A stretch of DNA of 64,000 bases from Nonomuraea gerenzanensis (GTDB taxonomy: Bacteria > Actinomycetota > Actinomycetes > Streptosporangiales > Streptosporangiaceae). Below are positions 13,013 through 52,554 of this stretch, piece after piece. The translations under genes and the position numbers were made by a program. The DNA is taken from the NCBI RefSeq assembly GCF_020215645.1, contig NZ_CP084058.1:11462501-11526500 (forward strand), read 5' to 3'. The notes under the pieces were generated by a model. The model ran no database searches, had not been told where the DNA came from, and saw only the letters and a list, made by a program, of their open reading frames with translations. How positions within the stretch are numbered: position 1 is the first letter of the stretch; every line of letters starts with the position of its first letter.

Positions 13013-13246
13013 GTTGATCTCCTTTGATGGGTGCAAAGCCGGAATCCGCATCCGAACGGATTCCGCGTCGCCGCGATAGGACCACACACCCGGAGATGAC
13101 CGGAGAACAAAAAATGCACCTGAGGCTACATACCGTCAGGTGCACACAAGTCTTTATGGGTACCACAACTGCAACTGAGCCCAATCTAGCACATGTGCCG
13201 TCGTGCTGCGGGCGCAGTCCTGAATCGGCGATGACGGCGTGCGACG

Positions 13247-36438: not shown

Positions 36439-36445
36439 GGCGGTA

Positions 36446-37240
36446 GTGCCTCCACGCCTCGCTCGGGTCTACCCGCCGCCACGCACGACATCCGCACCTC
36501 CTCCCATCTTCACGACGCGCACCGTCGCGCTGCCGGCGGCCGTGACACTCGGGGCGATCGTCTTCTGGGTGGCGCAGGCGCCCGCGGTGGCCACGGTGCT
36601 GGCCGCCGTGGCGACCGTCTGGGCCATGCAGTTGATCGCACCCGCCGTCCGGCGGCGAAGTCTGTCGATGGACGGCTGGGCGTCGGAGATCCTCTTCGCC
36701 TCGCCGTTCGTCCTGTTCTTCCTGCCCTACGTGGCCTGGACCGTGGTCGCCCGCCCGCCGTTGACCTGGGACTGGGTCGGCGCCGCCCTCGCCGTCGCCA
36801 CCGCAGTGGCGGTGTACGCCAGCAACTGGCGGCAGCTGCGCGTCGGCTTCGACCGGGAGTTCCTCGAGATCATGCCGCCGCTGCACCTCACCACGGCGGT
36901 GCTGCGCAGCTACCAGTTGCAGGCCGCGGCGATCGGGCAGGAGCTGTTCTACCGGGGGGTGGTCTTCGAGTTCCTCAGGCCGGGCATCGGGTGGGCGGTG
37001 ATCGTCGTCTCGACCGTGCTGTTCGTCGTGGAGCACCTGGGCAACCGCTGGGCCGGCGCGGTGCTCGACCGCGCCTACGTCGTCCGGATCACCGTGCTGT
37101 CCACGGCCCTGGCCACGATCATGTTCATGACGGGATCGTTGTGGGCGGCCCTGCTCGGGCACGTGGTCTACAACCTCTTCCCGGTGGCGCAGGTCGCCTG
37201 GCGCTACCACGTCAACCCCCACCGCCGCGGTGAGGCGTGA
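36446..37240 (+). CDS. CPBP/Rce1-type membrane protein
   Basis: 264 residues, about seven TM segments. CPBP intramembrane protease motifs: AAAIGQELFYRGVVF (EExxxR region, with Gln in the first Glu position), TVLFVVEHLGNRW (FxxxH) and LLGHVVYNLFP (HxxxN/B). Because the first Glu is replaced, peptidase activity is uncertain. In peptide clusters CPBP proteins act in leader removal, maturation or self-immunity. GTG 36446 lies 8 bp after the kinase gene with GAGG before it. Confidence 0.82.
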   Translation: MPPRLARVYPPPRTTSAPPPIFTTRTVALPAAVTLGAIVFWVAQAPAVATVLAAVATVWAMQLIAPAVRRRSLSMDGWASEILFASPFVLFFLPYVAWTVVARPPLTWDWVGAALAVATAVAVYASNWRQLRVGFDREFLEIMPPLHLTTAVLRSYQLQAAAIGQELFYRGVVFEFLRPGIGWAVIVVSTVLFVVEHLGNRWAGAVLDRAYVVRITVLSTALATIMFMTGSLWAALLGHVVYNLFPVAQVAWRYHVNPHRRGEA

Positions 37241-37260: not shown

Positions 37261-37809
37261 TCAGGCGGCGAAGTCGACCCCGAGGATCTCGGTCGCCGCC
37301 TGCTTCGGCTGCGGGCCGACCAGGTCGGCCGTCAGGAGGAACAGGTAGGAGACCGCCGACCAGTCGCCGTCCGTGCCGGCTCCCGCCGCTTCGAGGGCGT
37401 TCGCCCAGGTCAGGAGCGTGAACGTGGCCAGCTCGGCCGCGCCGACCACCCACTCCCTGCCGGTGAAGCGATCGCGCCAGGTCACGTCGGCACCGTTGCC
37501 GAGCTGGGGATAGACGAACTTGCGGTCGCAACAGCCGTACAGATGGACGGCCGACTCCGCGGCCTCGCCGATGAGCGCGCTCAGCTTCGGCCGGTCCGCC
37601 AGCTCGACCAGCGGCGCGACGAGACCGTCGGTCCCGTACACGGCGTGGCACAGGCCGGCGATGGCGACATCGTCCGAGCAGCCCCAGCTACGCAGCAGTT
37701 GCTCGGTCCCGGCCAGGTGGTCCAGCAAGGAGCGATGATGCAGCTTGATCCGCGCGGTGCCCCGTTCCTCCAGGAACTGCACGACGGCGTTTCGATCGAT
37801 ATTGGTCAC
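37261..37809 (-). CDS. DUF6817-like, HD-type-looking protein
   Basis: 182 residues. IKLHHRSLLDHLAGTEQLLR, then SWGCSDDVAIAGLCHAVYGT resembles the DUF6817 group (from memory), whose spaced His residues recall HD-domain metal sites. Then AESAVHLYGCCDRKFVYPQL. No signal or membrane segment. GTG 37809 lies 11 bp after the nucleotidyltransferase gene on the same strand, so the two are an operon. Function unknown. Confidence 0.72.
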   Translation of the reverse strand: MTNIDRNAVVQFLEERGTARIKLHHRSLLDHLAGTEQLLRSWGCSDDVAIAGLCHAVYGTDGLVAPLVELADRPKLSALIGEAAESAVHLYGCCDRKFVYPQLGNGADVTWRDRFTGREWVVGAAELATFTLLTWANALEAAGAGTDGDWSAVSYLFLLTADLVGPQPKQAATEILGVDFAA

Positions 37810-37820
37810 TGCCCGACGCC

Positions 37821-38630
37821 TCAGATCGCCTTCAGAATGATTTCGTCACCGAACTGCAGACACCGCTGGGTCAGGGCCAAGATGTCTCCCTGGATCGGCC
37901 CGCCGATGGCTTCGCAGTCAAGGAAGTGGTCAGCGAGAGAAGTGTCGTCCGCCAGCAGCCGCCTGAGCTTCTTCCACCGCCATTTGTCGACCCGGGTGTT
38001 GGTCTCGCCGTTCGCGGCGAGATACATGTCGACGGCGGCTTCCACCCGCTGTCTGGCGACAAAGTACGCGGAGATGACGTCGCCTTCGTCGAGAAGCCCC
38101 TGAGCGTCGTCGAACAGGCCGTCGGCGCGGTTCTGGTAGAAACGCATCAGGTACTGGCGGAACTTCATGAAGTCCACGCCCCGCTGAATCTCGTCGAACC
38201 GTTCGGTGTTCGCCAGCGGCACCCCGATGCTCAGCCGGTGCACGAACTCCCGGAAGTTGTCGCTCCACGCCGTGGGGTAATCGGTCTCGCCGTTGAATGC
38301 CGTGAGGAAGCCATTTAGCGTGTCCAGCAGCTCGACCGGGACCACGGTGAGGTCTATCTTGGTGCGGCCCGGCGTGAGCGTCATGTACATCGGCGGCATG
38401 TCCGGGCCTGTCACCTGCGGTACGCCACTGGTGCGGCCCTGGTCCGGGCTGATGAGATAAAGGTCCAGGTCGGAGCGCGAATTAGCGAATCCCTCGACCC
38501 ACGAACCACTCCAGAAGAACGTCTCGTCGCCATTGAGGCGCACATCTTCGACCAGTTCGGCCACGCTACTGCCGCAGCGTTCCTTGAGGAGGCCGTCGAG
38601 GAGGTCGGGGGTCGCTCGTTCCGCATTCAT
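37821..38630 (-). CDS. Nucleotidyltransferase (Pol-beta-like fold)
   Basis: 269 residues. GSWVEGFANSRSDLDLYLIS is the GSxxxG...SDLDL active site with two metal-binding Asp, and KIDLTVVPVE supplies the third. The C-terminal half is helical (FMKFRQYLMRFYQNRADGLF). This fold adenylylates or uridylylates antibiotics, proteins or RNAs. It lies upstream of the DUF6817-like gene and divergent from the SDR/ALDH operon. Target unknown: a biosynthetic step or self-protection are both possible. Confidence 0.82.
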   Translation of the reverse strand: MNAERATPDLLDGLLKERCGSSVAELVEDVRLNGDETFFWSGSWVEGFANSRSDLDLYLISPDQGRTSGVPQVTGPDMPPMYMTLTPGRTKIDLTVVPVELLDTLNGFLTAFNGETDYPTAWSDNFREFVHRLSIGVPLANTERFDEIQRGVDFMKFRQYLMRFYQNRADGLFDDAQGLLDEGDVISAYFVARQRVEAAVDMYLAANGETNTRVDKWRWKKLRRLLADDTSLADHFLDCEAIGGPIQGDILALTQRCLQFGDEIILKAI

Positions 38631-38909
38631 GGTGCGTCCTCGCTCTTACAGAAAGCCATCGCCCCCACTCGCCCAGGGGGCAGCAGTACGGGGAGCAGTG
38701 TCGCAGTTGTGACAAATGTTAGTCAAGGCACCCTCCGTAACCCCCACCGCCTCCTCGGTCACGACAGGTCACACCTTTTTGTCAACATAAGTCTGGTCAT
38801 TCTGATCACACAGATATATGGTCTCTGCCAAGTGCGCCGCACTGGGCAGCAAGCCCATTCCGCAGCGGTTCAGAGAGGATCGCGAACCGAAGACGAGAGG
38901 AACTGGCGC

Positions 38910-39722
38910 GTGTCGGATTCAAGTCTCGACTTCCATGGGCCGCTCGCCCTGAGCGGCAAGACCTTCATCGTCACCGGCGGCGGGTCCGGCATCGGTCTGT
39001 GCACGGTCGAGCACTTACTCGCGGCGGGCTCCTCGGTCGTGGCGGTGGACGTCAACACCGACGCGGTCAAGAGCGTCGACGGAGACGTGACGGTGGTGTG
39101 CGGCGACGTGTCGCTGCCGGAGGTCGCCGCGGAGGCCTTCGAGCTGGCCATGGTCAGCGGGCGGCTCGACGGCGTGGTGTTCGCGGCCGGCACGTCCTCG
39201 ACCGGTTCGATGGCCGAGCTCAGCCTGGAGGTCTTCGGCCAGGACCTGGCCCGCAACCTGAGCGTGCATCTGCCGCTCTCGCAGGCCGTGCTGCGGCACC
39301 GGACCGCGCACCGGACCGACACCCAGTGCTCGCTGGTGTACGTGGCCTCCAAGCACGCGGTGGCGCCCAGCTCGGGCTTCGGCGGCTACCCGGTGGCCAA
39401 GGGCGCGGTGCTCCAGCTGGCCCGGCTCTTCGCGCTCGAAGGGGCCAGGCTGGGCATCCGGGCGAACACCATCAATCCCGGCGCGGTCTTCGACGGCTCG
39501 AAGTTCTGGGAGGAGACCCTGTCGGCGGAGAAGGCCCAGTCACACGGGATCAGCGTGGACGAGCTGCCCGACTTCTACGCCAGGCGCACCCTCCTGGGCG
39601 TGCGCGTGACCCCGGCGGACGTCGCCAACGCGATCATGTTTCTGCTGTCCCCGCTCAGCCGAGCCACCACCGGCGCGATCATCGGTGTCGATGGAGGGCT
39701 GCCGGTCAGCTTCGCGCGGTAG
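38910..39722 (+). CDS. SDR oxidoreductase
   Basis: 270 residues. Cofactor loop FIVTGGGSGIGLCTVEHL, VVAVDVNT (acidic residue after beta-2, favouring NAD), FAAGTSSTG, Ser in YVASKHA, catalytic GGYPVAKGAVL, and the NTINPGAV strand. GTG 38910 after GAGAGGAA. The 279 bp upstream, divergent from the nucleotidyltransferase gene, hold AT-rich promoter-like sequence (ACACAGATATATGG). It lies 11 bp from the ALDH gene, suggesting successive oxidation of an alcohol or aldehyde. Confidence 0.9.
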   Translation: MSDSSLDFHGPLALSGKTFIVTGGGSGIGLCTVEHLLAAGSSVVAVDVNTDAVKSVDGDVTVVCGDVSLPEVAAEAFELAMVSGRLDGVVFAAGTSSTGSMAELSLEVFGQDLARNLSVHLPLSQAVLRHRTAHRTDTQCSLVYVASKHAVAPSSGFGGYPVAKGAVLQLARLFALEGARLGIRANTINPGAVFDGSKFWEETLSAEKAQSHGISVDELPDFYARRTLLGVRVTPADVANAIMFLLSPLSRATTGAIIGVDGGLPVSFAR

Positions 39723-39733
39723 GCGACCAGGAA

Positions 39734-41269
39734 GTGAGCACACCCCAGATGAGCGCGACCGACGCGGCGGCCGAGCCCCGCACCCCGGCGGACCTGGAGC
39801 AGTACCGGATGCTGGTGGACGGGGTCTGGCGCGACGCCGCAGGGAAGGCGACGTTCGACTCCGTCAACCCGTTCACCTCGCAGCCCTGGGCTCGCGTGCC
39901 CGCCGCGAGCGAGCAGGACATCGACGACGCCGTGCAAGCCGCGCGCCGGGCCTTCGAGACCGGCCCGTGGGCCGACTCCAGCCCGCTCCAGCGAGCCGCT
40001 CTGCTGCGCAGGCTCGGCGACCTCATCGGTGACAACGCCGACGAGCTCGCCCGGGTGCAGGTGCTGGAGAACGGAAGGCTGGTCCGCGAGGTCGGCGGAC
40101 GAGCCAAGTCCCTGGCCAACCACGCCTACTTCTTCGCGGGCGTCGCCGAGAGCCCCACCGGGGAGACGCTCGCCGGCAGCGTGCCCAACATGCAGATCTT
40201 CACGGTCCGCGAGCCCATCGGCGTGGTCGCCGCCATCACGCCCTGGAACAGCCCGCTGACGCTCCTGCTCTGGAAGCTGTGCCCGGCGCTGGCCGCCGGC
40301 AACACCGTGGTGATCAAACCCTCCGAGATCACCCCCGTCTCGACGCTCGTCCTGGCCAGGCTGCTCTGCGAGGCCGGCTTCCCCGACGGTGTCGTCAACG
40401 TGGTCACCGGAGCCGGCGACGCCGGGGCGGCCCTGGCCGCGCACCCCGGGGTGGACAAGATCGCCTTCACCGGGTCCACCGAGGTCGGGAAGAAGATCGC
40501 CGGCACCGCCGCGGAGCGCCTCGCCCGCGTCTCGCTCGAACTCGGGGGCAAGTCGCCCAACCTCGTCTTCCCCGACGCCGATCTGAGCAGCGCGGTGAAC
40601 GGCGTCGTCGGAGGCGTCTTCGCGGCCACCGGGCAGCTGTGCATGGCCGGCTCCCGGGTCCTGGTGCACACCGACGTCTACGACGAGTTCTGTGCCGCGC
40701 TGGTGGCCAGGACGGAGCGGATCAGGATCGGCGACCCCATGGATCCCGCCACCGAGATGGGCACCATGGCCTGCCGCGCCCAGTACGACAAGGTCCTGCA
40801 CTACATCGACGTGGCCAAGCAGGACGGGGCACGGCTGGCCACCGGCGGCGACCGCCCTGACGACCCGGCGCTCGCCCGCGGCCTCTTCATCCGCCCGACG
40901 GTCTTCACGCACGTCGACAACCGCATGCGCATCGCCCGCGAGGAGGTCTTCGGGCCGGTCGCGGTCGCCATCCGCTTCTCCGACGAGGACGAGGCCGTCG
41001 CCATCGCCAACGACACCCGCTTCGGCCTGGCGGCCGGTGTCTGGACCAGGGACCTCGCCAGGGCGCACCGGATGGTCCGGCGCCTGCGGGCCGGCACCGT
41101 GTGGGTCAACAACTACCGCAGGACCAACCACGTCGCGCCCTTCGGGGGGTTCAAGGAGAGCGGCATCGGCCGCGAGAACGGCTTCCACGCGATCGAGGAG
41201 TACACCGAGCTGAAGACCGTCTGGATCGACACCGGAAACCGCATCACCGATCCGTTCAGCAAGACCTGA
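39734..41269 (+). CDS. Aldehyde dehydrogenase
   Basis: 511 residues, full-length ALDH superfamily. WNSPLTLLLWKLCPALAAGN, the NAD site KPSEITP, FTGSTEVG, LELGGKSPNLVF (general-base Glu), FAATGQLCMAGSRVLV (catalytic Cys) and EEVFGPV. Start GTG 39734 or ATG 39749; neither ribosome binding site is ideal. It follows the SDR gene and precedes the asparagine-synthetase-like gene, so it probably makes a carboxylic acid building block or oxidises a side chain. Similar to betaine/succinate-semialdehyde-type ALDHs, substrate unresolved. Confidence 0.9.
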   Translation: MSTPQMSATDAAAEPRTPADLEQYRMLVDGVWRDAAGKATFDSVNPFTSQPWARVPAASEQDIDDAVQAARRAFETGPWADSSPLQRAALLRRLGDLIGDNADELARVQVLENGRLVREVGGRAKSLANHAYFFAGVAESPTGETLAGSVPNMQIFTVREPIGVVAAITPWNSPLTLLLWKLCPALAAGNTVVIKPSEITPVSTLVLARLLCEAGFPDGVVNVVTGAGDAGAALAAHPGVDKIAFTGSTEVGKKIAGTAAERLARVSLELGGKSPNLVFPDADLSSAVNGVVGGVFAATGQLCMAGSRVLVHTDVYDEFCAALVARTERIRIGDPMDPATEMGTMACRAQYDKVLHYIDVAKQDGARLATGGDRPDDPALARGLFIRPTVFTHVDNRMRIAREEVFGPVAVAIRFSDEDEAVAIANDTRFGLAAGVWTRDLARAHRMVRRLRAGTVWVNNYRRTNHVAPFGGFKESGIGRENGFHAIEEYTELKTVWIDTGNRITDPFSKT

Positions 41270-41353: not shown

Positions 41354-43150
41354 GTGTGCGGGATCGCAGGAGTCGTCAGCTGGGGCCGGGACACCGCTGA
41401 TCTCCGGACGGTCGAACGCCTGCTGACCGCCTTCGAGCACCGCGGGCCCGACAGCCGGGGCGCCGTGTCCAGCGGGCCCGCCGCCCTCGGCGCTGTTCGC
41501 CTGTCGCTCGTGGACGTCGCCGGATCGGACCAGCCGATCTCCTGCCGGGCGGCCGACGTGCATCTCGTCTTCAACGGCGAGATCTACAACCACGCACGGC
41601 TCAGGAAGGACCTGGAGAGCGCCGGGCACCGCTTCCTGACCGACGGGGACGGGGAGGTGATCCTGGCGTCCTACCTGCGCGACCCCGGGAACTTCACCCA
41701 GCGGCTGGACGGCATGTACGCCTTCGCGATCTGGGACGCCCGCCGGGAGACTCTCACAGTCGGCCGCGACCGGATGGGGATCAAGCCGCTCTACCTGTAC
41801 GCGGCTCAGGACCGGCTCGTCTTCTCCTCCGAGCTGCGCTCACTCGTGACGGATCCGCACGTCCCCGTCGAGGTGAGCCGGGACGCCGCCGCGGACTACT
41901 TCACCGTCCGGTTCTCACCACCGGCATGCAGCCCGTTGACGCACGTACGCAAGATCGAGCCGGGCACCACGGTCGTCTTCGACCGGCGGCACCCGTCAGG
42001 TCTGGTCCGCGAATCCCGCCGGCTCCGGTTCCCCGCCTTCTCCGCAGAGCAGGAGCTCCACGGTTCCCTGGCCGTGGCGCTGCGGGAATCGGTGTCGACG
42101 ACGCTCCCGCCGGACGCGCCGGCCGCCGCCTTCCTCAGCGGCGGGCTCGACTCGGCGACCGTCTCCGCCCTGGCAGCGCAGCAGAGGGGCACGCTCGACG
42201 TCTTCAGCGTCGGGTACGCCGCGAACACCTGGCAGGACGAGACCGCCTACGCCGGCGAGATCGCCCGGCACCTCGGCGCCCGGCACGACCTCACGCACCT
42301 CACGGAGTCGAACGTGCAGGAGACCTTCCTGGCGACGCTCCGATCGCTGGACGAGCCGATCTACACCCCTGTGTGTCTCAGCACCCATGCCGTCAGCGCA
42401 CTGGCGGCCCGAGAGCACAAGGCGGTGCTGGCAGGGGACGGCTCGGACGAGCTGCTGATGGGCTACGCGCACATGCACGAGGCGCACCAGGCCGCGCTTC
42501 GCGGCGAGCCCTGGCGCGATCAGTACTGGAACGCACTCGGGTGGTGGACCGACGACGACCGCCGGCGGGTCCTGGACGACGACATGCTCAAGCGGTGCGC
42601 CCCCGACGTCTCCCAGGAACGGTTCGGATTCGCCGGGCTCGCGGCCGGTGGGGCCGATGCGGCCGAGGTGATCCGCTGGTTCGAGGTCACGGCCAAGCTG
42701 CCCGAGTACCACCTGCCGCGGGTGGATCGGCTGTCCATGGCGCATGGGCTGGAGGTGCGCGTGCCCTTCCTCCGCGACGGCGTGGTGGACTGGGCGCTCG
42801 CGCGGCCCGCGCGCTCGCTGATGACGGGCCGCCCCAAGGAGGCGCTCCGGTCCGTGGCTCGCGGGCTCGTGCCCGCGAGCATCGTGGACCGTCCGAAGCA
42901 GAAGTTCTCCGCTCCCGCGTCGGCCTGGCTCGCCGGCCCGCTGCGCGACCTGACGCTCGATCTCCTCCACGAGGGTGCCGGCGCCGAGGAGCTCGGGCTG
43001 GAGGCCGCCGGGCTGGCCCGGCTCGCCGGCGACTTCCACCGTGACCCGTCGGCGAACACCAGGACCGTCTGGGGAATCGTGGTGCTCCTCGGCTGGTACC
43101 GGGCGCTCCAGGAGCACCTCCGCCAGGCCCGCGGTGCCGCCGCACCGTGA
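41354..43150 (+). CDS. asnB: Asparagine synthetase (glutamine-hydrolysing) homologue
   Basis: 598 residues. The class II glutaminase domain is intact: CGIAGVVS (nucleophilic Cys2 after Met removal, which fixes the start at GTG 41354), EHRGPDSRG, VFNGEIYNH, and DGMYAFAIWD. Synthetase domain: PP-loop AAFLSGGLDSATVSA, then AGDGSDELLMGY. Lasso-peptide cyclases are relatives, but they commonly have a degraded glutaminase half, so this protein looks like a true Gln-dependent amidotransferase that could amidate a carboxylate in the cluster product. A housekeeping asnB cannot be excluded, though the location argues against it. Confidence 0.9.
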   Translation: MCGIAGVVSWGRDTADLRTVERLLTAFEHRGPDSRGAVSSGPAALGAVRLSLVDVAGSDQPISCRAADVHLVFNGEIYNHARLRKDLESAGHRFLTDGDGEVILASYLRDPGNFTQRLDGMYAFAIWDARRETLTVGRDRMGIKPLYLYAAQDRLVFSSELRSLVTDPHVPVEVSRDAAADYFTVRFSPPACSPLTHVRKIEPGTTVVFDRRHPSGLVRESRRLRFPAFSAEQELHGSLAVALRESVSTTLPPDAPAAAFLSGGLDSATVSALAAQQRGTLDVFSVGYAANTWQDETAYAGEIARHLGARHDLTHLTESNVQETFLATLRSLDEPIYTPVCLSTHAVSALAAREHKAVLAGDGSDELLMGYAHMHEAHQAALRGEPWRDQYWNALGWWTDDDRRRVLDDDMLKRCAPDVSQERFGFAGLAAGGADAAEVIRWFEVTAKLPEYHLPRVDRLSMAHGLEVRVPFLRDGVVDWALARPARSLMTGRPKEALRSVARGLVPASIVDRPKQKFSAPASAWLAGPLRDLTLDLLHEGAGAEELGLEAAGLARLAGDFHRDPSANTRTVWGIVVLLGWYRALQEHLRQARGAAAP

Positions 43151-43260: not shown

Positions 43261-44181
43261 TCAGATGATTCGCCAGGACGAATTGTTGAGCGAATAGCCC
43301 TTCATTCGCCGGAGCCGCCGTTCGCCGGGGCCGAGCGCCGTCCTGGCGTGCAGCGCCCGGCGATTGTCGACGATGATGAGGTCGTCCGTCTCCAGTCGCA
43401 CCTGCGCCGCGCACGATTCGGGCTCGGCGACCACCTGGTTGAGCACGGAAAGCGCGTGCCGATGGGCCTCGTCGAGCTCGAACCGCTCTGTCAGCTTCGT
43501 CAGAATGTCGCCGCGGTAGCGGATGCACCATTCGTCGCCGTCCGCGACCAGGATGGGCACCAGCTGAATTCCGTGACCGAACAGCGGGTCGCGCAGATAG
43601 AACGGATAAACCTGGTCGCCGAGTGCCGCCAGCGCGTCGGCGCCACCTATGGCGCGTACCCGATCCGCCACGTCCGCCGCGCGCACAATGATGGACTCGC
43701 CGCCCGAGTCGCTGTTTCGCACGCACGCCAGGGCGAGCACGTCATGGGGGACGGAGAAGAATGTGGAATCGGTGTGCAGCGGAAACTCGGCGCTGGTGCC
43801 CGACACGTCGTCCGAGCGCGACGAGCTCGGCGAGATGTCGAAGAAGAGGGTATCGCCGTTGCCCGGAGCCGAGGGGACGGCGATGAGGCCGAGAAAGGCG
43901 ACGAGCTCGGCGTCCTCGCTACACGGGACGTTCTTGACCAGGGCGAAGCCGTCCTCGCGCATCCTGCGCCGCACTTCCAGCCCGATGGACCGGAGCGACT
44001 CGGACTGTCCGGCCCGATCGCGCAGGGCTTCTATGGACGGGCCATCCAGTGACCACCCCACCACGACCGACGCCACTTCAGCGAGTTCGCGCCGGTCGGC
44101 TTCACTGAGGCAGATCTCACTCAAGATGCTTCCCTCACGAGTGGACACTGAATGGACCGCCTGTTCTTTCTTTAACGACAT
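43261..44181 (-). CDS. TauD/TfdA-type Fe(II)/2-oxoglutarate oxygenase
   Basis: 306 residues. FPLHTDSTFF is the HxD iron motif, ALHARTAL the distal His, and GERRLRRMKGY carries the Arg that binds 2-oxoglutarate. It resembles the clavaminate-synthase/AsnO-like branch that hydroxylates amino acids (inference). ATG 44181 lies 13 bp after the 24-codon peptide gene, so both are on one transcript from the promoter at 44300-44329. A precursor directly upstream suggests that the oxygenase acts on that peptide. Confidence 0.88.
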   Translation of the reverse strand: MSLKKEQAVHSVSTREGSILSEICLSEADRRELAEVASVVVGWSLDGPSIEALRDRAGQSESLRSIGLEVRRRMREDGFALVKNVPCSEDAELVAFLGLIAVPSAPGNGDTLFFDISPSSSRSDDVSGTSAEFPLHTDSTFFSVPHDVLALACVRNSDSGGESIIVRAADVADRVRAIGGADALAALGDQVYPFYLRDPLFGHGIQLVPILVADGDEWCIRYRGDILTKLTERFELDEAHRHALSVLNQVVAEPESCAAQVRLETDDLIIVDNRRALHARTALGPGERRLRRMKGYSLNNSSWRII

Positions 44182-44194
44182 ACCTGTCGGGAAC

Positions 44195-44269
44195 TTAGTC
44201 GATGATCACAGCACCCAGGAGGTCGATGTGACGCACGACGGGCTTCACATAGCGCTTCTTCACTGCCAT
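44195..44269 (-). CDS. 24-residue candidate RiPP precursor peptide
   Basis: ATG 44269 to TAA 44195. It begins MAVKKRYVKPVV, continues RHIDLLG and ends AVIID. KKRYxKPxV followed by a hydrophobic LLG resembles the YxxPxL/V leader motif that PqqD-type recognition proteins bind in lasso and related RiPPs. A promoter (TTGACG-N18-TACGAT) lies just upstream, and GAGAGAAAGGA precedes the ATG. The TauD-like gene follows after 13 bp. It is too short for a lasso core after the leader-like part, so the modified residues may be the last five to eight (GAVIID region) or the peptide may act as a scaffold. Too short for routine gene calling. Confidence 0.7.
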   Translation of the reverse strand: MAVKKRYVKPVVRHIDLLGAVIID

Positions 44270-44299
44270 TCCTTTCTCTCGTTGATCTAGGTCGAAAGG

Positions 44300-44329
44300 A
44301 TCGTAGGCAGATCCCCGACGCCGCGTCAA
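44300..44329 (-). promoter_or_regulatory. Promoter of the small peptide-TauD operon
   Basis: Minus strand: -35 TTGACG (44324-44329), 18-bp spacer, -10 TACGAT (44300-44305). The start point would fall about 25 nt before the peptide ATG at 44269. Confidence 0.65.
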
Positions 44330-44500
44330 GCACTCTTGTCACGTCGGTCGGACGAATACGTTCCGTGAACGACAGCGGCAATCTCACTTACCGCACGCAG
44401 TCAAGAACTCACTCTTTGTCTGACCAGCCGACCGGGAGCCCCTATTGAAGCGTTCCAACAATGGCCTCCGGCGCATCCTCAGATTCGCCTCCCATAATGG

Positions 44501-44528
44501 TTGCACAACGGCCTTTCTCGCTTACAAT
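44501..44528 (+). promoter_or_regulatory. Promoter of the radical SAM gene
   Basis: -35 TTGCAC (44501-44506), 16-bp spacer, -10 TACAAT (44523-44528). The predicted transcript starts near 44535, downstream of the first in-frame ATG (44461), which supports the ATG at 44578 as the start. Confidence 0.65.
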
Positions 44529-44577
44529 CTTGGAATCCGCCATGCCTCCCGGTGTCACCGATGGAAGGGGAGCGCCT

Positions 44578-46788
44578 ATGGGAGTCTCCAGCGAGTTCTC
44601 CGGCGAACAGCGCGCGCTGCTGACCCGTACGTTTATCGACCCGGCATTTCGCGAAGCGCTCCGGGATGATGTGTCATCGGCCTTGCGTGCCGCCGGAATC
44701 GATCCGTCGAGCGCGCTCGGCGGGTCGATGCGCGAGGAGATCGAGGGGTTCTTCGCCCGGGGAGGCGGCGCGCGCCTGGACCGGAGCGCGACGATGAGCC
44801 TCGACATCGCCGCGGCGAACCCCACGGCGAACCACACGGCGCAGGACAGCGCCGCGTCGCCCCGCGTGGCCTTCGTGGTGATGCCGTGGGCGGAGACCCG
44901 CTGGGCGTCGATCGGAGTCTCCCTCCTGCAGTCCGCCCTCACCGCGAGCAGCATCGCCAGCGACGTCATCTACGCCAACCTCGACTTCGCCGAAGCCGTC
45001 GGGAACACGATGTACAACCGCATCGGCACCTCCTCCCCGAAGGTGGCCCTGGTCGGCGAGTGGCTGTTCACGGAGGGCCCGGTCGATGGCGCGGACGGCG
45101 GCGAGCGGTTCCTGAACGAGGTCCTGCTCGACGAGCACGGCGGGTTCGCCGACTTCGCCACGATCTTCCAGCTGGGTGAGATCAAGGCGTTGACGGCGCC
45201 GTTCCTGGACGCCCTGGCGCGTCACGAGGTCTGGGAACGCTATGACCTCGTCGGGCTGACATCGACCTTCCAGCAGAACGTCGCCGCGCTCGGGTTCGCC
45301 CGCCGGCTCAAGCAGCTGCACCCGCACATCACCGTCATCATGGGCGGCGGCAACTGCGAGGGGCCGATGGGCTCGGCGATCCTGCGCAACTACCCCGCGA
45401 TCGACTACGTGTTCCGCGGCGAGGCCGAGTGGCTGATCAGCCGGTTCGTGAGCGACTTCCGCGCCGCGGGTGCCCGTCCCGGCTGGGTCGAATCGGACCC
45501 GTTCTGGAGCGCCAGGGCGGAGCCGCAGCCCGGCGGCCGGGCTGTCATCGTGGCCGGCACCGCCCCCAGCATGGACGACCTGCCGGTGCCGGAGTACCAC
45601 GACTTCTACAACCGGCTCCGGGCGTCCCGGCCCGGCAGCAGCCTGCCCGTCGACACCGCCGTCCCCCTCGAGACCTCACGGGGTTGCTGGTGGGGCGAGA
45701 AGAAGCACTGCACGTTCTGCGGCCTGAACGGCATGACGATGGCGTTCAGGAGCAAGTCGGCCGCGAGAGCCTTCGACGAGCTGCGCAAGCTGGTCCACGA
45801 CTACGGGCCCGGCCCGAAGCGCCGGACGAACGTGCTGGTCGTGGACAACATCCTCGACTACCGCTATTTCAACGACCTGCTGCCGATGATCGCGCAGTCG
45901 GACCTGAAGGTCTCCCTGCACTACGAGGTGAAGTCCAACCTCCGCCTCGACCAGCTCATGCTGCTGCGCGACGCGGGCGTCCACCACCTGCAGCCCGGCA
46001 TCGAGTCGATGAGCAACCGGCTCCTGGAGGCCATGCGCAAGGGGACCACCAGGTTGCGGAACCTGCAGACGATGAAGTGGTGCGCCGAGCTGGGCATCGA
46101 CGTGTCGTGGAACTATCTCCACGGCTTCCCGGGCGAGACCGACGACGACTACGCGGACCTGCCGCAGCTGTTCAGCCTGGTCCCCCACATGTCGCCGCCG
46201 GAGCACGTGGGCCCGGCCCGCGCGGATCGCTTCAGCCCCTTCTACGAGTCGGGCGCGGACTTCGGGATCGTCGAGCTGACGCACGAGCGGGCCTACGACC
46301 ACGTGTACGCCGACCTGCCGAGCGCCGAACGCCGCGACATCGCCTACTTCTTCCGCATGCGCTGCGACGAACCCCTCGCCTCGGAGCCCGTGCTGGCCGC
46401 GATGTCGGCCGCCGCGGAGCGCTGGCGGCAGGACCACGCCGAGGCGCGGCTCGAAGCGTCCTGGGTGGACGACCACCTTCGCGTCATCGACACCCGGCCC
46501 GCCAGGCCCCGGCCCGAGACCGAGTTCGACCTCGACCCGGCGGCCAGCAGTGTCCTGCTCGCGCTCGACCAGCTCAGGTCCGCGCAGGCCATCGAGCGGG
46601 CCTTGCCCGTGCCGGTCCCCGCCACGGAGATCGCGGGTGCTCTCGACCGGCTGCTCGACGCGGGCCTCGTCGTCCGCGACGGTGACAGCTACCTCGCCCT
46701 GCCGGTCCTCAACCGGCGGCGGCTGCCGAGCGCGAAACCCGCCGTCCGGGTCCCCAGAGACCTTCCGCTGCTGACCGGCACGACCTGA
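44578..46788 (+). CDS. B12-binding-type radical SAM RiPP-maturation protein with leader-like N-terminus
   Basis: 736 residues. Residues 95-290: B12-binding-like Rossmann region (VAFVVMPWAETRWASIGVSL; ITVIMGGGNCEGPMG). Residue ~368: TSRGCWWGEKKHCTFCGLNG, a CX7CX2C iron-sulfur motif characteristic, as I recall, of the RiPP-maturation radical SAM C-methyltransferase family (TIGR03975), followed by the TIM barrel (HYEVKSNLRLDQL; LQPGIESMSNRLLEAM). The C-terminus looks like a winged helix. Unusual: residues 1-62 (LLTRTFIDPAFREALRDDVS, then SALRAAGID) resemble NHLP/Nif11-type leader domains fused to the enzyme. ATG 44578 has AAGGGGAG and a promoter upstream. It likely methylates or otherwise alters a peptide at unactivated carbon. 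Confidence 0.88.
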   Translation: MGVSSEFSGEQRALLTRTFIDPAFREALRDDVSSALRAAGIDPSSALGGSMREEIEGFFARGGGARLDRSATMSLDIAAANPTANHTAQDSAASPRVAFVVMPWAETRWASIGVSLLQSALTASSIASDVIYANLDFAEAVGNTMYNRIGTSSPKVALVGEWLFTEGPVDGADGGERFLNEVLLDEHGGFADFATIFQLGEIKALTAPFLDALARHEVWERYDLVGLTSTFQQNVAALGFARRLKQLHPHITVIMGGGNCEGPMGSAILRNYPAIDYVFRGEAEWLISRFVSDFRAAGARPGWVESDPFWSARAEPQPGGRAVIVAGTAPSMDDLPVPEYHDFYNRLRASRPGSSLPVDTAVPLETSRGCWWGEKKHCTFCGLNGMTMAFRSKSAARAFDELRKLVHDYGPGPKRRTNVLVVDNILDYRYFNDLLPMIAQSDLKVSLHYEVKSNLRLDQLMLLRDAGVHHLQPGIESMSNRLLEAMRKGTTRLRNLQTMKWCAELGIDVSWNYLHGFPGETDDDYADLPQLFSLVPHMSPPEHVGPARADRFSPFYESGADFGIVELTHERAYDHVYADLPSAERRDIAYFFRMRCDEPLASEPVLAAMSAAAERWRQDHAEARLEASWVDDHLRVIDTRPARPRPETEFDLDPAASSVLLALDQLRSAQAIERALPVPVPATEIAGALDRLLDAGLVVRDGDSYLALPVLNRRRLPSAKPAVRVPRDLPLLTGTT

Positions 46789-46836: not shown

Positions 46837-48045
46837 GTGACAGAAACCGCGTTCACCTTTCCGACCGACAAGAGACCCGGGCCCTTCGACCCGCCGGACG
46901 TGTTCGCCAGGGTCCGCGAGGAGCGTCCGCTCACCCCGATGACGTTCGCGGACGGGCACGAGGGCTGGCTCGCCTCCAGTCATCGCATCGTGCGGAAGAT
47001 CCTCGCGGATGACCGGTTCAGCAACCGGCGCGAGCTCATGCACCTGCCCGTCGATCGGGACATCTCCAAGAAGCGGCAGCCGTCCGAGCCGGGCATGTTC
47101 ATCCGCATGGACCCGCCCGAGCACACGCGCTACCGCCGGCTCCTCATCGCCCAGTTCACCGTCCACCGGATCAGGCAGCTCGAACCGAAGATCAGCGCAG
47201 TGGTGCGGAGCTGCCTGGACGCCATGGAACGCTCGGGGCCGCCCGTCGACCTGGTCGAGGAGTTCGCGGTGTCCATCCCGTCGGCGGTCATCTGCGACCT
47301 GCTGGGCATCCCGGCGAGCGAGCGAGCGGAGTTCCAGCGGGCGATGGGCGTCGCCGTCGACCTCAACACCAAGCAGGCCGACCTCATCGAGGCGTTCATC
47401 ACCATGCAGAGCCTCTTCCCGCCGCTGATCGCCAGCAAGCGGGCCAGGCCGACGGACGACTTCTACAGCGACCTGATCAACAACAGCGACCTCACCGACG
47501 AGGAGCTCACCAACATCGGCTTCATGCTGTTCGGCGCCGGGTTCGAGACCACCGCCAACATGCTGGGGCTCGGCACCTTCGCCCTGCTGGAGCATCCCGC
47601 GCAGGTCGCGGCGCTGCGTCAGGACCCCTCGCTGATCGACAGCACGGTCGAGGAGCTGCTGCGCTACCTCACCATCATTCACATCGGCCCGATGCGGGCG
47701 GCCCTGGAGGACGTGGAGATCGAAGGGGTCACCATCAAGAAGGGCCAGGTGGTCTGCATGTCCCTGGCGGCGGCCAACCGGGATCCCGCGTGTTTCGACG
47801 ATCCGGAGAGCCTGGACATCTCCCGGTACGCCAGGGCGGGCAAGCGGAACCTGGGCCATCTCGCCTTCGGCCACGGCATCCACCAGTGCCTCGGCCAGCA
47901 GCTCGCCCGCGCCGAGATGCGGCTGGCGTTCCCCGCCCTGTTCGAACGCTTCCCGGGCCTCCGCCTCGCCCTTCCTCCCGAGGAGGTGCCGACGAGGCAG
48001 GCCGCGGTCATCTACGGCGTCCAGCGCCTGCCGGTCACGTGGTGA
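46837..48045 (+). CDS. Cytochrome P450
   Basis: 402 residues, bacterial class I P450. I-helix LFGAGFETTANML (oxygen activation), K-helix EELLR (ExxR), heme loop FGHGIHQCLGQQLAR with the Cys ligand. The N-terminus has no membrane anchor. GTG 46837 lies 48 bp after the radical SAM gene, so it is co-transcribed. Probably a tailoring hydroxylase or crosslinking enzyme of the cluster; ferredoxin partners are not encoded nearby. Confidence 0.93.
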   Translation: MTETAFTFPTDKRPGPFDPPDVFARVREERPLTPMTFADGHEGWLASSHRIVRKILADDRFSNRRELMHLPVDRDISKKRQPSEPGMFIRMDPPEHTRYRRLLIAQFTVHRIRQLEPKISAVVRSCLDAMERSGPPVDLVEEFAVSIPSAVICDLLGIPASERAEFQRAMGVAVDLNTKQADLIEAFITMQSLFPPLIASKRARPTDDFYSDLINNSDLTDEELTNIGFMLFGAGFETTANMLGLGTFALLEHPAQVAALRQDPSLIDSTVEELLRYLTIIHIGPMRAALEDVEIEGVTIKKGQVVCMSLAAANRDPACFDDPESLDISRYARAGKRNLGHLAFGHGIHQCLGQQLARAEMRLAFPALFERFPGLRLALPPEEVPTRQAAVIYGVQRLPVTW

Positions 48046-48105: not shown

Positions 48106-49383
48106 TCAGGCCTTGGCCTCCGATTCAGCCTCGGGCTCATGGGAACGGGTCCGCTCCGCCCACGCCACAGCCGCCGGCACCAGCAGTCCAGCCGCCACCA
48201 TCAGCACGCCGAGGACGATCCATCCGGTGATGCCGGCTCCTCCCAGCACGAGCACCGCGAGCAGGTACGGCCCGGCCGACGCGGCCAGCCCCTGCCCGAG
48301 CCCGAAGACCCCGCTGTATTCACCCTGCAGCTGAGCGGGCGCCAGCCCGAAGCTCAGCTCGAACTCGGCAGCCGCGTAACGCAGCTCCGCCAAGGTCAGC
48401 ACGACGACACCGACGATGAGCAGAACGGTCGCGACGGTCGCGGTGAGCCCTGACGCCCAGCCGAAGAGAATGAACGCCAGGAAAAGGCCGAAACTCGCGG
48501 TACGGGCCGCGCTGCCCGCCTTTATGACGCCGTTGATGCCTTTTGTCGCGCTGAGCTGAAAAAGCGCGACCAGCACCGTGTTGATGGTGACCAGAATCGC
48601 GAATATCGACCGTGGCGCCGCCGTGTTCTGCACGATCCACAGCGGTATCGCGAACGTGAGGACCGGCCCCTGCAACGCCAGGATGCCATTCAGTACGGTG
48701 ACCGCCAGGAAAGGCTTGTCACGCAGCGCCACGCCCGTGGTGCTCTCCGACTTGGCACGCAGCGGATCCAGCTTCGGCAGGAGCAGGACCAGGAACACGT
48801 TCACCGCGAAACTGATCGCGTTGGCGAGGATGAGAACGGTGTAGGCGGAGCGGGTGTCGATGGTGATGACGACGCCGGCGGCCAGGGCACCGAGACTCGT
48901 GCCGACGTTGACCAGGGACCGGATCACGGCACGTAGCCGGGTCGCGCCGGCGCCGCCGATCCGGCGGAACACCGGCATGCGCGCGGTCTGGCTGGCCGCC
49001 GCCGCGAACTGGCTCGCGCACGCCATGACCACGAAGGACGGGAAGGAGTTCACGAAGAGGAAGCCGGCCATGGCGCAGGCTTCGAGCACCAGGAACATCG
49101 CCCACAGCCGGCGAGGCCCCCAGCGGTCGGCCATCCTGCCCACCGGGATCCCGGCGGCGAGCGCGGCGAAACCGGCGATCGTGAGCCCCGCGCCCACCTC
49201 CACCACGGACAGTCCGACGACGCGGGTGAAGTACAGGGCCCCGGCCGTGAGGAACAGCCCGCTGCCCGTGGTGTTCACCAGCGTCGAGATCGCCAGGACC
49301 CGCCGTGGACCCGTTTGCAGCTCGACGGACTCGAGCAGCCGGGCCCGCCATCCTTTCGATTGTTCGGTGGGCGACGACGTCAT
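48106..49383 (-). CDS. MFS transporter, probable product exporter
   Basis: 425 residues, about 12 TM segments. AISTLVNTTGSGLFLTAGAL opens TM1; motif A region GIPVGRMADRWGPRRLW; GATRLRAVIRSLVNVGTSLG in TM5. It starts with ATG 49383 (MTSSPTEQSK). A longer frame to 49446 is possible, but the added residues look non-coding. Placed at the right edge of the cluster, convergent with the P450, it is the only dedicated exporter and probably gives efflux and self-resistance. Confidence 0.88.
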   Translation of the reverse strand: MTSSPTEQSKGWRARLLESVELQTGPRRVLAISTLVNTTGSGLFLTAGALYFTRVVGLSVVEVGAGLTIAGFAALAAGIPVGRMADRWGPRRLWAMFLVLEACAMAGFLFVNSFPSFVVMACASQFAAAASQTARMPVFRRIGGAGATRLRAVIRSLVNVGTSLGALAAGVVITIDTRSAYTVLILANAISFAVNVFLVLLLPKLDPLRAKSESTTGVALRDKPFLAVTVLNGILALQGPVLTFAIPLWIVQNTAAPRSIFAILVTINTVLVALFQLSATKGINGVIKAGSAARTASFGLFLAFILFGWASGLTATVATVLLIVGVVVLTLAELRYAAAEFELSFGLAPAQLQGEYSGVFGLGQGLAASAGPYLLAVLVLGGAGITGWIVLGVLMVAAGLLVPAAVAWAERTRSHEPEAESEAKA

Positions 49384-49446
49384 CCGCACCGGCCAGGAAA
49401 CTCGGAGGCGGCCACTGAAGAATGCACGTGTGTTCCTATCTCTCAC

Positions 49447-50675: not shown

Positions 50676-51566
50676 ATGAGAACGTTCACCAGGATCCTCA
50701 CCGCGACCACCGCCGCGCTGGCGCTCGGCGGCGGGCTGCTGGCCGCCGCGGCACCGGCCTCGGCCGCCGGCCGCGACGGCGTCTGCGACCCCGGCGAGTT
50801 CTGCTACTACTTCAACAGCAACAACCAAGGCTCGGTCTCCGACTTCACCGGCTCCATCGCCGACTACGCCACCACCCAGCCCACCTGCTACGACTTCAAA
50901 GGCCCCGGCGCCGGCAAAGGCCAATGCATCAAGAACGCCGCCGCCTCCGTCTGGAACCGCAGCAGCAAGACCGTACGCGTCTACTACAACACCGGACACG
51001 CCGGCACCTACCAGGACTTCGCCGCAGGCGCCAAGGGCAACCTGAACGCCACCCTCAAGAACCAGAACGCCTCGCACGAGTTCGGCCCGTCCTCCTCCTC
51101 GCGCACCAACATGTCGTACTCGCTCTACACGGCCGCCGGCCGGATCACCTGCGGGTTCGACGGTTACACCAACACGCCCGGCCGGCACGAGGGCATCGAC
51201 ATCGCCCGCGGCGTGGGCTCCAACGTGCACGCCCTGGTGGCGGGCCAGGTCATCAACGTCGTCCGCGGGGCGACCGGCAGGTCGAACCTGTCCACGATCG
51301 CCATCTACAACGCCGCGGCGAACAAGACGGTGATCTACCTGCACTCCGCCCCGCTCGCCTCGCTGCGCGTGGGCCAGCAGGTCACCCGCGGCCAGGTCAT
51401 CGCCACCGAGTCGTGGCGCGGGGTGTCGAGCAGCGCGTCCGCGCACACCCACGTCGAGATGCGCATCGGACGGCAGACGCGGGCGGCCAAGAGCGTCGGC
51501 GACCCGCACCTGGAGAACCCGAACCCGACCTCGTTCTGGAACTCCCAGGGCTACAGCATCCGATAA
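50676..51566 (+). CDS. Secreted M23 metallopeptidase with I36 domain
   Basis: 296 residues. Signal peptide LTATTAALALGGGLLAAAAP, then ASA. Residues about 35-125: peptidase-inhibitor I36-type domain (DPGEFCYYFNSNNQGSVSDF) with four Cys. C-terminal LytM/M23 domain: HEGIDIARGVGSNVHA (HxxxD) and HTHVEMRIG (HxH) give the complete zinc site. ATG 50676 has AAGGAG. It hydrolyses peptidoglycan crosslinks. Its I36 coding DNA (50757-51077) is 320/321 identical to that of the next gene. Confidence 0.9.
   Translation: MRTFTRILTATTAALALGGGLLAAAAPASAAGRDGVCDPGEFCYYFNSNNQGSVSDFTGSIADYATTQPTCYDFKGPGAGKGQCIKNAAASVWNRSSKTVRVYYNTGHAGTYQDFAAGAKGNLNATLKNQNASHEFGPSSSSRTNMSYSLYTAAGRITCGFDGYTNTPGRHEGIDIARGVGSNVHALVAGQVINVVRGATGRSNLSTIAIYNAAANKTVIYLHSAPLASLRVGQQVTRGQVIATESWRGVSSSASAHTHVEMRIGRQTRAAKSVGDPHLENPNPTSFWNSQGYSIR
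50757..51077 (+). repeat. Near-identical I36-domain repeat, copy 1
   Basis: 321 bp identical to 51691-52011 except G50969 versus A51903, a synonymous change. Identity stops abruptly at both ends, where the two genes diverge. Confidence 0.95.
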
Positions 51567-51597: not shown

Positions 51598-52554
51598 GTG
51601 CTCAGGATCCGCTTGTTATCGCGGCTCGCCGCGGCGACCACCGCCGCGCTGGTGCTCGGCGGCGGGACGGTGCTCGCCACCCCGGCACCCGCCTCGGCCG
51701 CCGGCCGCGACGGCGTCTGCGACCCCGGCGAGTTCTGCTACTACTTCAACAGCAACAACCAAGGCTCGGTCTCCGACTTCACCGGCTCCATCGCCGACTA
51801 CGCCACCACCCAGCCCACCTGCTACGACTTCAAAGGCCCCGGCGCCGGCAAAGGCCAATGCATCAAGAACGCCGCCGCCTCCGTCTGGAACCGCAGCAGC
51901 AAAACCGTACGCGTCTACTACAACACCGGACACGCCGGCACCTACCAGGACTTCGCCGCAGGCGCCAAGGGCAACCTGAACGCCACCCTCAAGAACCAGA
52001 ACGCCTCGCACCAGTTCCTGGGCACCACCCCGCCGCCCACGTCACCGGCCGGGTGCAAGACCGACGGCACCGACACCAAGCTGCCCACGACGATCCTCGT
52101 CTACCGGGCCTCCCTGGACCGCGTGGAACGGGTGGACTTCAAGACCTATGTGAAGAACGTCCTGCCCAACGAGTGGGTGTCGAGCTGGCCGAGTGAGTCG
52201 CTGAAGGCCGGGGCGATGGCCGTGAAGAACTTCGGCTGGTACTGGGCGCTGCACTCCAACCGCAAGACGCCGAGCGGCCAGTGCTTCGACGTCTACGACC
52301 ACACGTCGAGCCAGGTGTACAAGCCCGGCTCCGCCAAGGCGGTGACGAGTGCCGCGGTGGACGCGACGTGGAGCACCCGGCTGACCCGCGGCGGCAAGAT
52401 CTTCCGGGCGCAGTACTGCGCCACGACGACGGCGTGCGGCAACTGGGTCGACGGCGACTGGATGTCGCAGCGCGGCTCCCGCGACAAGGCCCTGGCGGGC
52501 TGGAGCCACTCCAGCATCCTCCGGCACTACTACACGGGGATCGCGATCAGCTGA
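51598..52554 (+). CDS. Secreted SpoIID/LytB-domain protein with I36 domain
   Basis: 318 residues. GTG 51598 after GAGGAGG. Signal peptide (AAATTAALVLGGGTVLATPA, then PASA). I36 domain as in the preceding gene. C-terminal SpoIID-like domain: FKTYVKNVLPNEWVSSWPSE, then SLKAGAMAVKNFGWYWA, the conserved Glu-containing segment of lytic-transglycosylase-type SpoIID, then the YDHTSSQVY and GWSHSSILRHYY parts. Different catalytic domains on one shared I36 module suggest a common targeting or inhibitory role. Lies 31 bp after the M23 gene. Confidence 0.88.
   Translation: MLRIRLLSRLAAATTAALVLGGGTVLATPAPASAAGRDGVCDPGEFCYYFNSNNQGSVSDFTGSIADYATTQPTCYDFKGPGAGKGQCIKNAAASVWNRSSKTVRVYYNTGHAGTYQDFAAGAKGNLNATLKNQNASHQFLGTTPPPTSPAGCKTDGTDTKLPTTILVYRASLDRVERVDFKTYVKNVLPNEWVSSWPSESLKAGAMAVKNFGWYWALHSNRKTPSGQCFDVYDHTSSQVYKPGSAKAVTSAAVDATWSTRLTRGGKIFRAQYCATTTACGNWVDGDWMSQRGSRDKALAGWSHSSILRHYYTGIAIS
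51691..52011 (+). repeat. Near-identical I36-domain repeat, copy 2
   Basis: Partner of 50757-51077: one substitution in 321 bp. Confidence 0.95.

Follow-up and report, generated by a model that had tools for sequence, protein, structure and literature searches.

Lasso peptides whose precursors are recognized by a discrete RRE (TfuB1, TbiB1 and PbaB1 type) are among the described systems closest to the locus analyzed here, with which they share a YxxPx[V/L] motif, a PqqD-like RRE, an enzyme of the asparagine synthetase family and the spacing of the leader. In a described set of lasso precursors, the YxxPxL motif is placed at positions -17 to -12 and an Ile at position -2 (PMC10368454). The linear polyphosphorylated peptides (LPP) resemble the present locus in the YxxPxV leader, the discrete RRE, the genes for a kinase and an NTP transferase, the membrane peptidase and a description without lasso cyclase; their precursors are given as 35-200 residues long, with an HprK-like kinase and a signal peptidase in the gene sets (PMC13381572). 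Microcin C likewise has a tiny precursor of fixed length, an exporter gene and a C-terminal transferase, which is known there and proposed here; the 7-residue MccA is described without a leader or an RRE, and MccB is described as adenylating its C-terminal Asn (PMC6495379, PMC9239234). In the pearlin system, the C-terminus of a ribosomal peptide is the work place, and a small product may be released in both cases; the scaffold TglA is reported to have 50 residues and to be extended by aminoacyl-tRNA (PMC9016710). Finally, oxidation of a C-terminal Asp region is described for aminopyruvatide and nitrilobacillin, with a P450 and a B12 radical SAM enzyme (apy) or an AS-like enzyme (pes); their precursors, their recognition and their MNIO enzymes set them apart in these accounts (PMC10635010, PMC13060819), and no MNIO enzyme is found among ten cluster proteins scanned in the present locus.

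Here we analyze a frame of 24 codons in a stretch of 64,000 nucleotides from Nonomuraea gerenzanensis, the whole of which is referred to as the window. The product of this frame is probably the precursor (or carrier) peptide in a RiPP-type pathway that depends on an RRE; as far as sequence comparison can tell, it belongs to a family of YxxP peptides of 21-24 residues. The distance from the Tyr to the stop is 18-19 residues in this family, whereas it is 31-39 in 39 lasso precursors from the same taxonomic family; the window locus lacks a B2 peptidase, its asparagine synthetase-like enzyme is not a cyclase by score, and an NTase is the constant partner of the short peptides. In contrast to the LPP systems, the precursors have 21-24 residues and are accompanied by thymidylate-kinase-like or NDK-like genes and a CPBP protease, the NTP transferases being compared by description. 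Unlike MccB, the NTase belongs to the Pol-beta type, and the precursors vary at their C-termini. PqqA has about 22-24 residues and MftA about 30. The PQQ and mycofactocin pathways thus also combine a PqqD-like RRE with a very short precursor, the C-terminal part of which gives a small product, but the ten cluster proteins scanned include neither PqqE nor MftC, and the window has the YxxP motif and the NTase instead. The aminoacyl-tRNA-dependent ligase of pearlin biosynthesis is also absent from these ten proteins.

The gene cluster

The genes of the cluster are arranged in the following order.

35452-35742, + strand: RRE, PqqD-like discrete recognition protein (PF05402 3e-17; lasso_PqqD_Strm 1.4e-7, under cut-off)
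35764-36438, + strand: thymidylate-kinase-like P-loop kinase (PF02223 4.3e-4, under cut-off; relatives in L227 and L231)
36452-37240, + strand: CPBP intramembrane protease, candidate leader peptidase (PF02517 3e-12 for the frame 36182-37240; start provisional)
37261-37809, - strand: DUF6817 protein (PF20680 7.1e-26)
37821-38630, - strand: nucleotidyltransferase (NTase), Pol-beta type as judged by its relatives (relatives' profile 2.9e-28)
38709-41269, + strand: SDR (frame 38709-39722) and aldehyde dehydrogenase (frame 38999-41269), starts inside the frames
41354-43150, + strand: glutamine-dependent asparagine synthetase-like enzyme (AsnB; TIGR01536 3.7e-109, above cut-off)
43261-44124, - strand: TauD/TfdA-type Fe(II)/2OG oxygenase (PF02668 2.9e-23; proposed start TTG 44124)
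44195-44269, - strand: putative precursor peptide gene, 24 codons plus stop, MAVKKRYVKPVVRHIDLLGAVIID, identical in three species
44270-44280, - strand: purine-rich ribosome binding site GAGAGAAAGGA, unchanged across the three species
44300-44329, - strand: promoter-like pair TTGACG-N18-TACGAT from a motif scan
44461-46788, + strand: B12 radical SAM C-methyltransferase, RiPP maturation type (TIGR03975 2.5e-168, above cut-off; start possibly further in)
46837-48045, + strand: cytochrome P450 (PF00067 4.4e-39; kept in both near relatives)
48106-49446, - strand: MFS-type exporter, named by sequence only

The SDR is identified by Pfam and the aldehyde dehydrogenase is named by sequence only; both are kept in the two near relatives, and TauD, radical SAM enzyme and P450 recur as a set in these two relatives only. 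The window NTase has no Pfam match at 0.01 (best 0.034). In the PDB, the NTase profile weakly matches chains of poly(A) polymerase, Mnt and aminoglycoside adenylyltransferase (best 0.0011). AlphaFold models computed from 3-row alignments reached a mean pLDDT of 52 for the NTase and 40 for the DUF6817 protein, values too low for a structure search. In AsnB the N-terminal Cys is intact (VCGIAG start), and the nearest solved structure is the hydroxyamidotransferase 7ylz. AsnB scores 366 bits with the asparagine synthase model (cut-off 267); a lasso cyclase was rejected at 144 bits with the respective model, under the cut-off of 525. Residues 52-84 of the B12 radical SAM enzyme (44614-44712) match the Os1348 NHLP leader (2.4e-4, 21 bits, cut-off 40), so that its N-terminus weakly resembles a leader domain fused to a maturase.

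The peptide gene and its conservation in Nonomuraea

Within the 64-kb window, MAVKKRYVKPVVRHIDLLGAVIID is the only frame that combines Y..P.[LVI] with a start (ATG or GTG) no more than 25 residues upstream and has no more than 60 residues left until the stop. The first-pass annotation had taken this frame for a real gene with a promoter and a ribosome binding site of its own. The promoter-like pair was indeed located at 44329-44300, where the scan found one pair against a mean of 0.2 in shuffled sequences; its hexamers are kept in N. longispora with the -10 hexamer the same and the -35 hexamer one base off, and 4 of the 18 spacer bases agree. The purine-rich ribosome site exists as well, but its AAAGGA runs right up to the ATG, leaving too little space, and is better placed 6 nt upstream of an in-frame GTG at codon 3 (GTG 44263). 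In view of this spacing the product may have 22 residues, and we regard this form as about as likely as the 24-residue product of the ATG. The gap of 13 bp to the TauD gene is doubtful, since it depends on an ATG at 44181 that is absent in frame from N. longispora. Two tauD starts are common to the three species, the TTG at 44124, which lies 70 nt past the stop of the peptide gene, and a GTG located 24 nt upstream of this TTG. The 42 nt preceding the TTG (44125-44166) differ at one base from N. longispora, fewer than the synonymous sites of the peptide, and part of them may be translated from the upstream GTG.

All 24 residues are identical in two further Nonomuraea genomes, whose TauD proteins are 97% and 85% identical to that of the window. 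Among the three species 7 of the 24 codons differ, all of them synonymously and without a single amino-acid change, which bears out the 24-codon frame as a real gene. As about 26% of the possible single substitutions in the peptide gene would be synonymous, seven synonymous changes have a chance probability of approximately 7e-5 by a rough simple count that ignores transition bias and relatedness. In TauD, 45 of 287 codons show nonsynonymous changes between the window and N. longispora. The codon changes indicate that the window peptide is under selection in the three species.

Of 297 genomes of the order, three have a tauD gene (E <=1e-30), N. gerenzanensis itself among them, and all three have the peptide; further TauD relatives in the protein database are at most 78% identical. 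The expected conservation beside tauD was thus found, as the frame adjoins both other tauD orthologues with readable DNA. A search of the genus with the peptide itself matched 4 of 54 genomes, the fourth match being at chance level (E 0.62, inside a 627-residue open frame). The kinase and the NTase of the window are 100% identical to those of the N. gerenzanensis record NZ_LT559118.1. Two other genomes, those of N. longispora and Nonomuraea [Actinomadura] parvosata kistnae, have the same gene set. When genome contigs were scanned starting from the kinase, 46 loci were obtained, among which, as far as fetched, only L005 and L006 carry the whole cluster; most of the remaining loci resemble the cluster in the kinase or in a common enzyme, and L029 also in an NTase.

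A family of short YxxP peptides with RRE and NTase

Relatives of the cluster were fetched via the RRE, the NTase, the kinase and the relatives so found, the peptide at no point being the query in these searches. Eleven further loci from Actinomycetota and Bacillota were obtained in this way. Ten of them have a YxxP peptide of 21-23 residues with 18-19 residues from Tyr to stop, and the remaining one (L222) has a longer frame (47 or 70 residues depending on the start) with the same 19-residue end YVKPQARQVAYNTVLRVVA. The earlier idea that the peptide is the substrate of the RRE protein gains support from the similar peptide at 11 of 11 further loci with a related RRE and NTase.

Beyond the three Nonomuraea species, the window RRE matched two of the 341 genomes searched, G086 (36%, 1e-8) and G150 (34%, 4.7e-6). 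The G086 locus, L102, has neither the NTase nor a peptide of the short YxxP family. The G150 locus, L103, carries MKRYEKPKVKKVDTGAVLRSNS upstream of genes for an AsnB-like protein, an NTase, an RRE and an AurF-like oxygenase. Its RRE matched 6 of 337 genomes, of which G209, G231 and G196 were new and all have a family-type peptide. With the G209 NTase, G350 was found (1 of 251 genomes of the class), together with plasmids of Streptomyces scopuliridis, S. europaeiscabiei, Streptomyces sp. NBC_00853 and Corynebacterium glyciniphilum; the window NTase matched plasmids of Parageobacillus and Exiguobacterium, and the window kinase matched Geobacillus pGeo12a. One peptide of 21-23 residues each is present in G350, the four actinobacterial plasmids, Parageobacillus and Geobacillus. 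The S. scopuliridis plasmid has a compact set with peptide, AsnB, a diiron oxygenase, an MFS protein, RRE and NTase. The Exiguobacterium plasmid (L229) has the NTase and no RRE or short peptide, and a fusion locus of NTase and RRE (L029) has no YxxP peptide. Loci found through the NTase carry it by selection; of the five new loci found through the RRE, four have both NTase and peptide and L102 has neither.

We count 12 cluster loci: the window type (three species taken as one), L103, L220, L221, L222, L224, L225, L226, L227, L228, L230 and L231, with L220 and L221 from one genus. L029, L229 and L102 are excluded as misses, and L001-L006, L051-L054, L056-L058, L066-L069, L071, L214-L219 and L223 are duplicate stretches of counted loci. 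The prediction that so short a gene would be missed by gene callers agrees with six plasmid records in which no listed gene spans the family peptide, the gene table being incomplete; in the L231 record a listed gene overlaps the peptide by 4 nt only.

A uniform rule was formulated as Y.[KRST]P with a ribosome site, a start within 25 residues and 18 or 19 residues from Tyr to stop. It applies to 11 of the 12 cluster loci, once in each, and to 1 of 124 control loci (1.87 Mb; L007-L050, L104-L163 and L194-L213, with L029 included and L102 in neither set), a ratio that is somewhat flattering because the rule was set after the members were known. L222 fails the rule because of its longer frame. Relaxing the motif to Y..P gives 11 of 12 cluster loci and 5 of 124 control loci. 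A looser motif also picks up six non-family frames, and 19 frames in the reversed sequence, so that the motif alone is not specific. Twenty frames have 14-24 residues from Y or W to the stop, and only that of L103 is of the family type. The other 19 look like chance frames or gene ends, seven of them sharing a PDGYLxPL-like stretch; a YxxP frame by itself is therefore no proof. At 20 further loci around sub-cut-off RREs no family-type peptide is found; 12 of them have a P450 relative, and such loci may be mycofactocin clusters. WxxP peptides of 35-39 residues were seen at L208 (7867, 8052 and 12592), L155 (8783) and L207 (6964), loci fetched around sub-cut-off RREs; four of these peptides are Cys-rich with a GAGAGSG end.

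Leader and core

In the family peptides Y and P are invariant, and K is found at Y+2 in 11 of 12 (10 of 11 in one alignment). Small or hydrophobic residues occupy Y+12 to Y+14. The last 3-5 residues are variable, with SNS, SRT, GSV, DTA, DNA, NNV, WPG and LKV among the C-termini. Between the peptides of G209 and G231 there is one difference in the first 18 residues, against three in the last 4. A conserved front and a variable end would correspond to the usual contrast of leader and core. The distance from Tyr to stop is 18-19 residues in all 12 loci and 18 in the window, where the variable end would be VIID, IID or ID. Compared with the main type, the window peptide has one extra residue before GAV and two fewer after it, which makes the limits of the core uncertain. 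A core of five to eight residues or a scaffold role had been suggested; the last 3-5 residues are the more likely core, and the end may be that of a carrier. The supposed exceptional shortness of the precursor is not upheld, as most microcin C precursors are reported to have 7 residues (PMC6495379).

For comparison with lasso precursors, the lasso RRE model NF033530 was searched in 341 genomes of the family, of which 144 matched, 79 of them above cut-off, and 40 loci around matches above cut-off were examined next to 20 around matches below it. Frames with Thr at +15 and Gly or Ala at +9 from the leader Tyr or Trp occur in 38 of the 40 loci. These 39 lasso-type precursors have 31-39 residues from Tyr/Trp to stop and cores of 14-22 residues. 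Placed in the lasso register, the window peptide is a whole leader, with YxxPx[L/V], an Ile at -2 and a single Asp in place of the core that follows in lasso precursors.

The shared enzymes

The NTase and the RRE are present in all 12 peptide loci, the NTase partly by selection. With the window and its near relatives left out, profiles built from eight NTases and from seven RREs recover the window NTase at 2.9e-28 and the window RRE at 8.1e-18 in a small frame set. In pairwise comparison the window NTase is 17-22% identical to the others, and it was missed by the G209 NTase search under its 1e-15 threshold. Among 235 sequences, 25 have the NTase, with many duplicates, and the RRE is missing from only one of these, L229. 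In 10 of the 12 loci, with the window and L225 as exceptions, the genes for NTase and RRE overlap, adjoin or are separated by no more than about 30 nt. At L029 3836-5098 (Streptomyces sp. AW19M42) an NTase carries a C-terminal RRE in one protein (1.2e-39 and 1.7e-9), which is our best hint that the RRE may serve the NTase; a related kinase gene lies 5 kb from this fusion. The motif S..G.....SDxD is invariant in 13 of 13 NTases, 10 of which match NTP_transf_2, the window's own not being among these.

The RRE profile matches TbiB1, TfuB1 and the RREs of 9x90 and 9x8z, two structures described with bound leaders (PMC13381572). D76 is invariant in 12 of 12 aligned RREs (with the window type entered twice and L221 absent) and aligns in our hands with D70 of LppB, an Asp described as bonding the leader Tyr (PMC13381572). 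A short motif-bearing frame under selection and an RRE gene in the same cluster, as in an RRE-dependent RiPP pathway, are both present in the window, as are the homologous NTase and the spacing of 18-19 residues on which the proposed family is based.

AsnB is found in 9 of 12 loci, each time with the N-terminal Cys, and is absent from the stretches fetched for L227, L230 and L231; CPBP is present in the window, and CPBP genes are annotated in L227, L230 and L231. Nucleotide-kinase-like genes are present in 8 of 12 loci, as thymidylate-kinase-like genes in the window, L228 (both under the Pfam cut-off), L227 and L231, and as NDK-like genes in L103, L220, L221 and L226. Amidation or nitrilation of peptide C-termini by AS-like enzymes has been described (PMC13060819), and by our own reading the Glu-Tyr pair of these enzymes has a counterpart in SDELLMGY of the window AsnB.

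Possible roles of the peptide

In the RRE-dependent pathway that we favor, the PqqD-like RRE would bind Y..KP.V in the same way as lasso RREs bind their leaders, as suggested by RRE homology and the invariant D76. The RRE would then present the short C-terminus to the Pol-beta-type NTase and, in the window cluster, also to the AsnB-like amidotransferase, TauD, the B12 radical SAM methyltransferase and the P450. Having a weak NHLP-like N-terminus of its own, the radical SAM enzyme may not act on the YxxP peptide. The C-terminal piece, consisting of the last 3-5 residues or of a group on the terminal carboxylate, would be freed by a protease, for which CPBP is a candidate, and exported by the MFS protein.

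Among the alternatives, a role as pure carrier is a possibility to be taken seriously, though we lean against it. A building block would be joined to the C-terminus of the peptide with AsnB as the joining enzyme, modified and released, so that no encoded residue would enter the product, as in pearlins. C-terminal residues that vary by locus at fixed length, a lasso register that leaves one residue only and the sugar-, cyclitol- or nucleotide-type genes near several relatives (partly annotated, partly our own reading) would all suit a carrier. However, the glutaminase Cys of AsnB is intact and fits amidotransferases, which makes ammonia the likely nucleophile, a pearlin-type tRNA-dependent ligase is missing from the ten cluster proteins scanned, and the window C-terminus is the same in all three species.

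We consider it rather unlikely that the product is a peptidyl nucleotide resembling microcin C. In such a pathway AsnB (or oxidation of a terminal Gly) would give a C-terminal amide, the NTase would add a nucleotide, and the product would poison an aminoacyl-tRNA synthetase. The NTase at all 12 peptide loci, partly a matter of selection, and the nucleotide-kinase-like genes at 8 of them, with those of the window and L228 under the Pfam cut-off, are in line with this, as is the trpS gene on pCgly1 of C. glyciniphilum (L227 9862-13602), which is divergent from a peptide gene with an AWPG end at a distance of 230 bp and is accompanied by GNAT and MFS genes. At 12961-13602 of the same plasmid, a 2OG-Fe oxygenase frame is absent from the listed genes. 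MccF of the microcin C system belongs to the S66 family. It is described as a member of the LD-carboxypeptidase family (PMC9239234). The Exiguobacterium plasmid (L229 1056-15346) carries a homologous NTase, a deoxynucleoside kinase, two AlaRS-type genes and an S66 peptidase, but it has neither RRE nor peptide. On the evidence of the annotated loci, a synthetase gene is present at 1 of the 12 peptide loci. No synthetase is included in the scanned proteins of the window cluster, and the genome has its three S66 genes elsewhere. The trpS gene at one locus and the Exiguobacterium locus are thus leads and not proof. A ThiF-like enzyme of the MccB type is not found among the ten cluster proteins scanned, and in place of the C-terminal Asn of microcin C the window peptide ends in Asp, with other residues elsewhere in the family.

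It is very improbable that the peptide is what remains of a lasso precursor after loss of its core. Its motif and register do fit lasso leaders, and the RRE matches lasso profiles under cut-off; nevertheless the strict conservation in three species and the recurrence at other loci speak against such a remnant, PF13471 (B2 leader peptidase) has 0 matches in the whole genome, and AsnB scores as an asparagine synthase. An even smaller chance is left for a regulatory leader peptide of the tauD transcript, an attenuator rich in Ile, Leu and Val. The short frame with its many branched-chain residues lies directly 5' of tauD, and the 42 nt before the TTG are nearly the same in N. longispora, but there is no terminator-like hairpin, the folding z of 0.78 is not unusual, there is no Rfam match at gathering score, and relatives precede other genes, namely AsnB and CPBP (annotated) and MFS-like and aminotransferase-like genes (our own reading). 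A chance frame that is not translated is hardly credible: the frame is very short, and the 44-residue open frame containing it has no protein sharing three words with it in the protein database, yet its changes are synonymous only, its promoter and ribosome site are conserved and the family recurs.

The favored reading, a precursor or carrier peptide of an RRE-dependent pathway, would mean that RRE-guided biosynthesis is possible on a leader with almost no core and that a Pol-beta nucleotidyltransferase gains a role in peptide modification. The recurrence of RRE, NTase and peptide suggests a way of making peptide-based natural products that has not been described, and what appears to be new is the use of a leader-length precursor and an NTase in RRE-guided RiPP biosynthesis; in the open-licence literature we found no earlier account of such a family. 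Tentatively, the loci might represent a scattered, overlooked RiPP class with precursors of 21-24 residues, a lasso-like leader and a core of 3-5 residues, in which an RRE-guided Pol-beta NTase would install a nucleotide- or phosphate-linked group to give peptidyl-nucleotide-like antibiotics without MccB, some of them targeting aminoacyl-tRNA synthetases. The 12 loci from two phyla provide a search rule: RRE and NTase are sought first, and then a frame in which Y.KP is followed by a stop at a distance of 18-19 residues. Precursor genes as short as these would escape gene finders that impose a minimum length.

Some further observations were made in the stretches fetched. L102 has a YxxP frame of 42 residues at 6652. 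On Geobacillus pGeo12a (L231 4176-4682), a second PqqD gene follows a 51-residue YxxP peptide with three KCR repeats, and QueA and diaminopimelate decarboxylase genes lie nearby. In the window itself, the adjacent genes at 50676-51566 and 51598-52554 share a near-identical N-terminal stretch and have different C-terminal parts.
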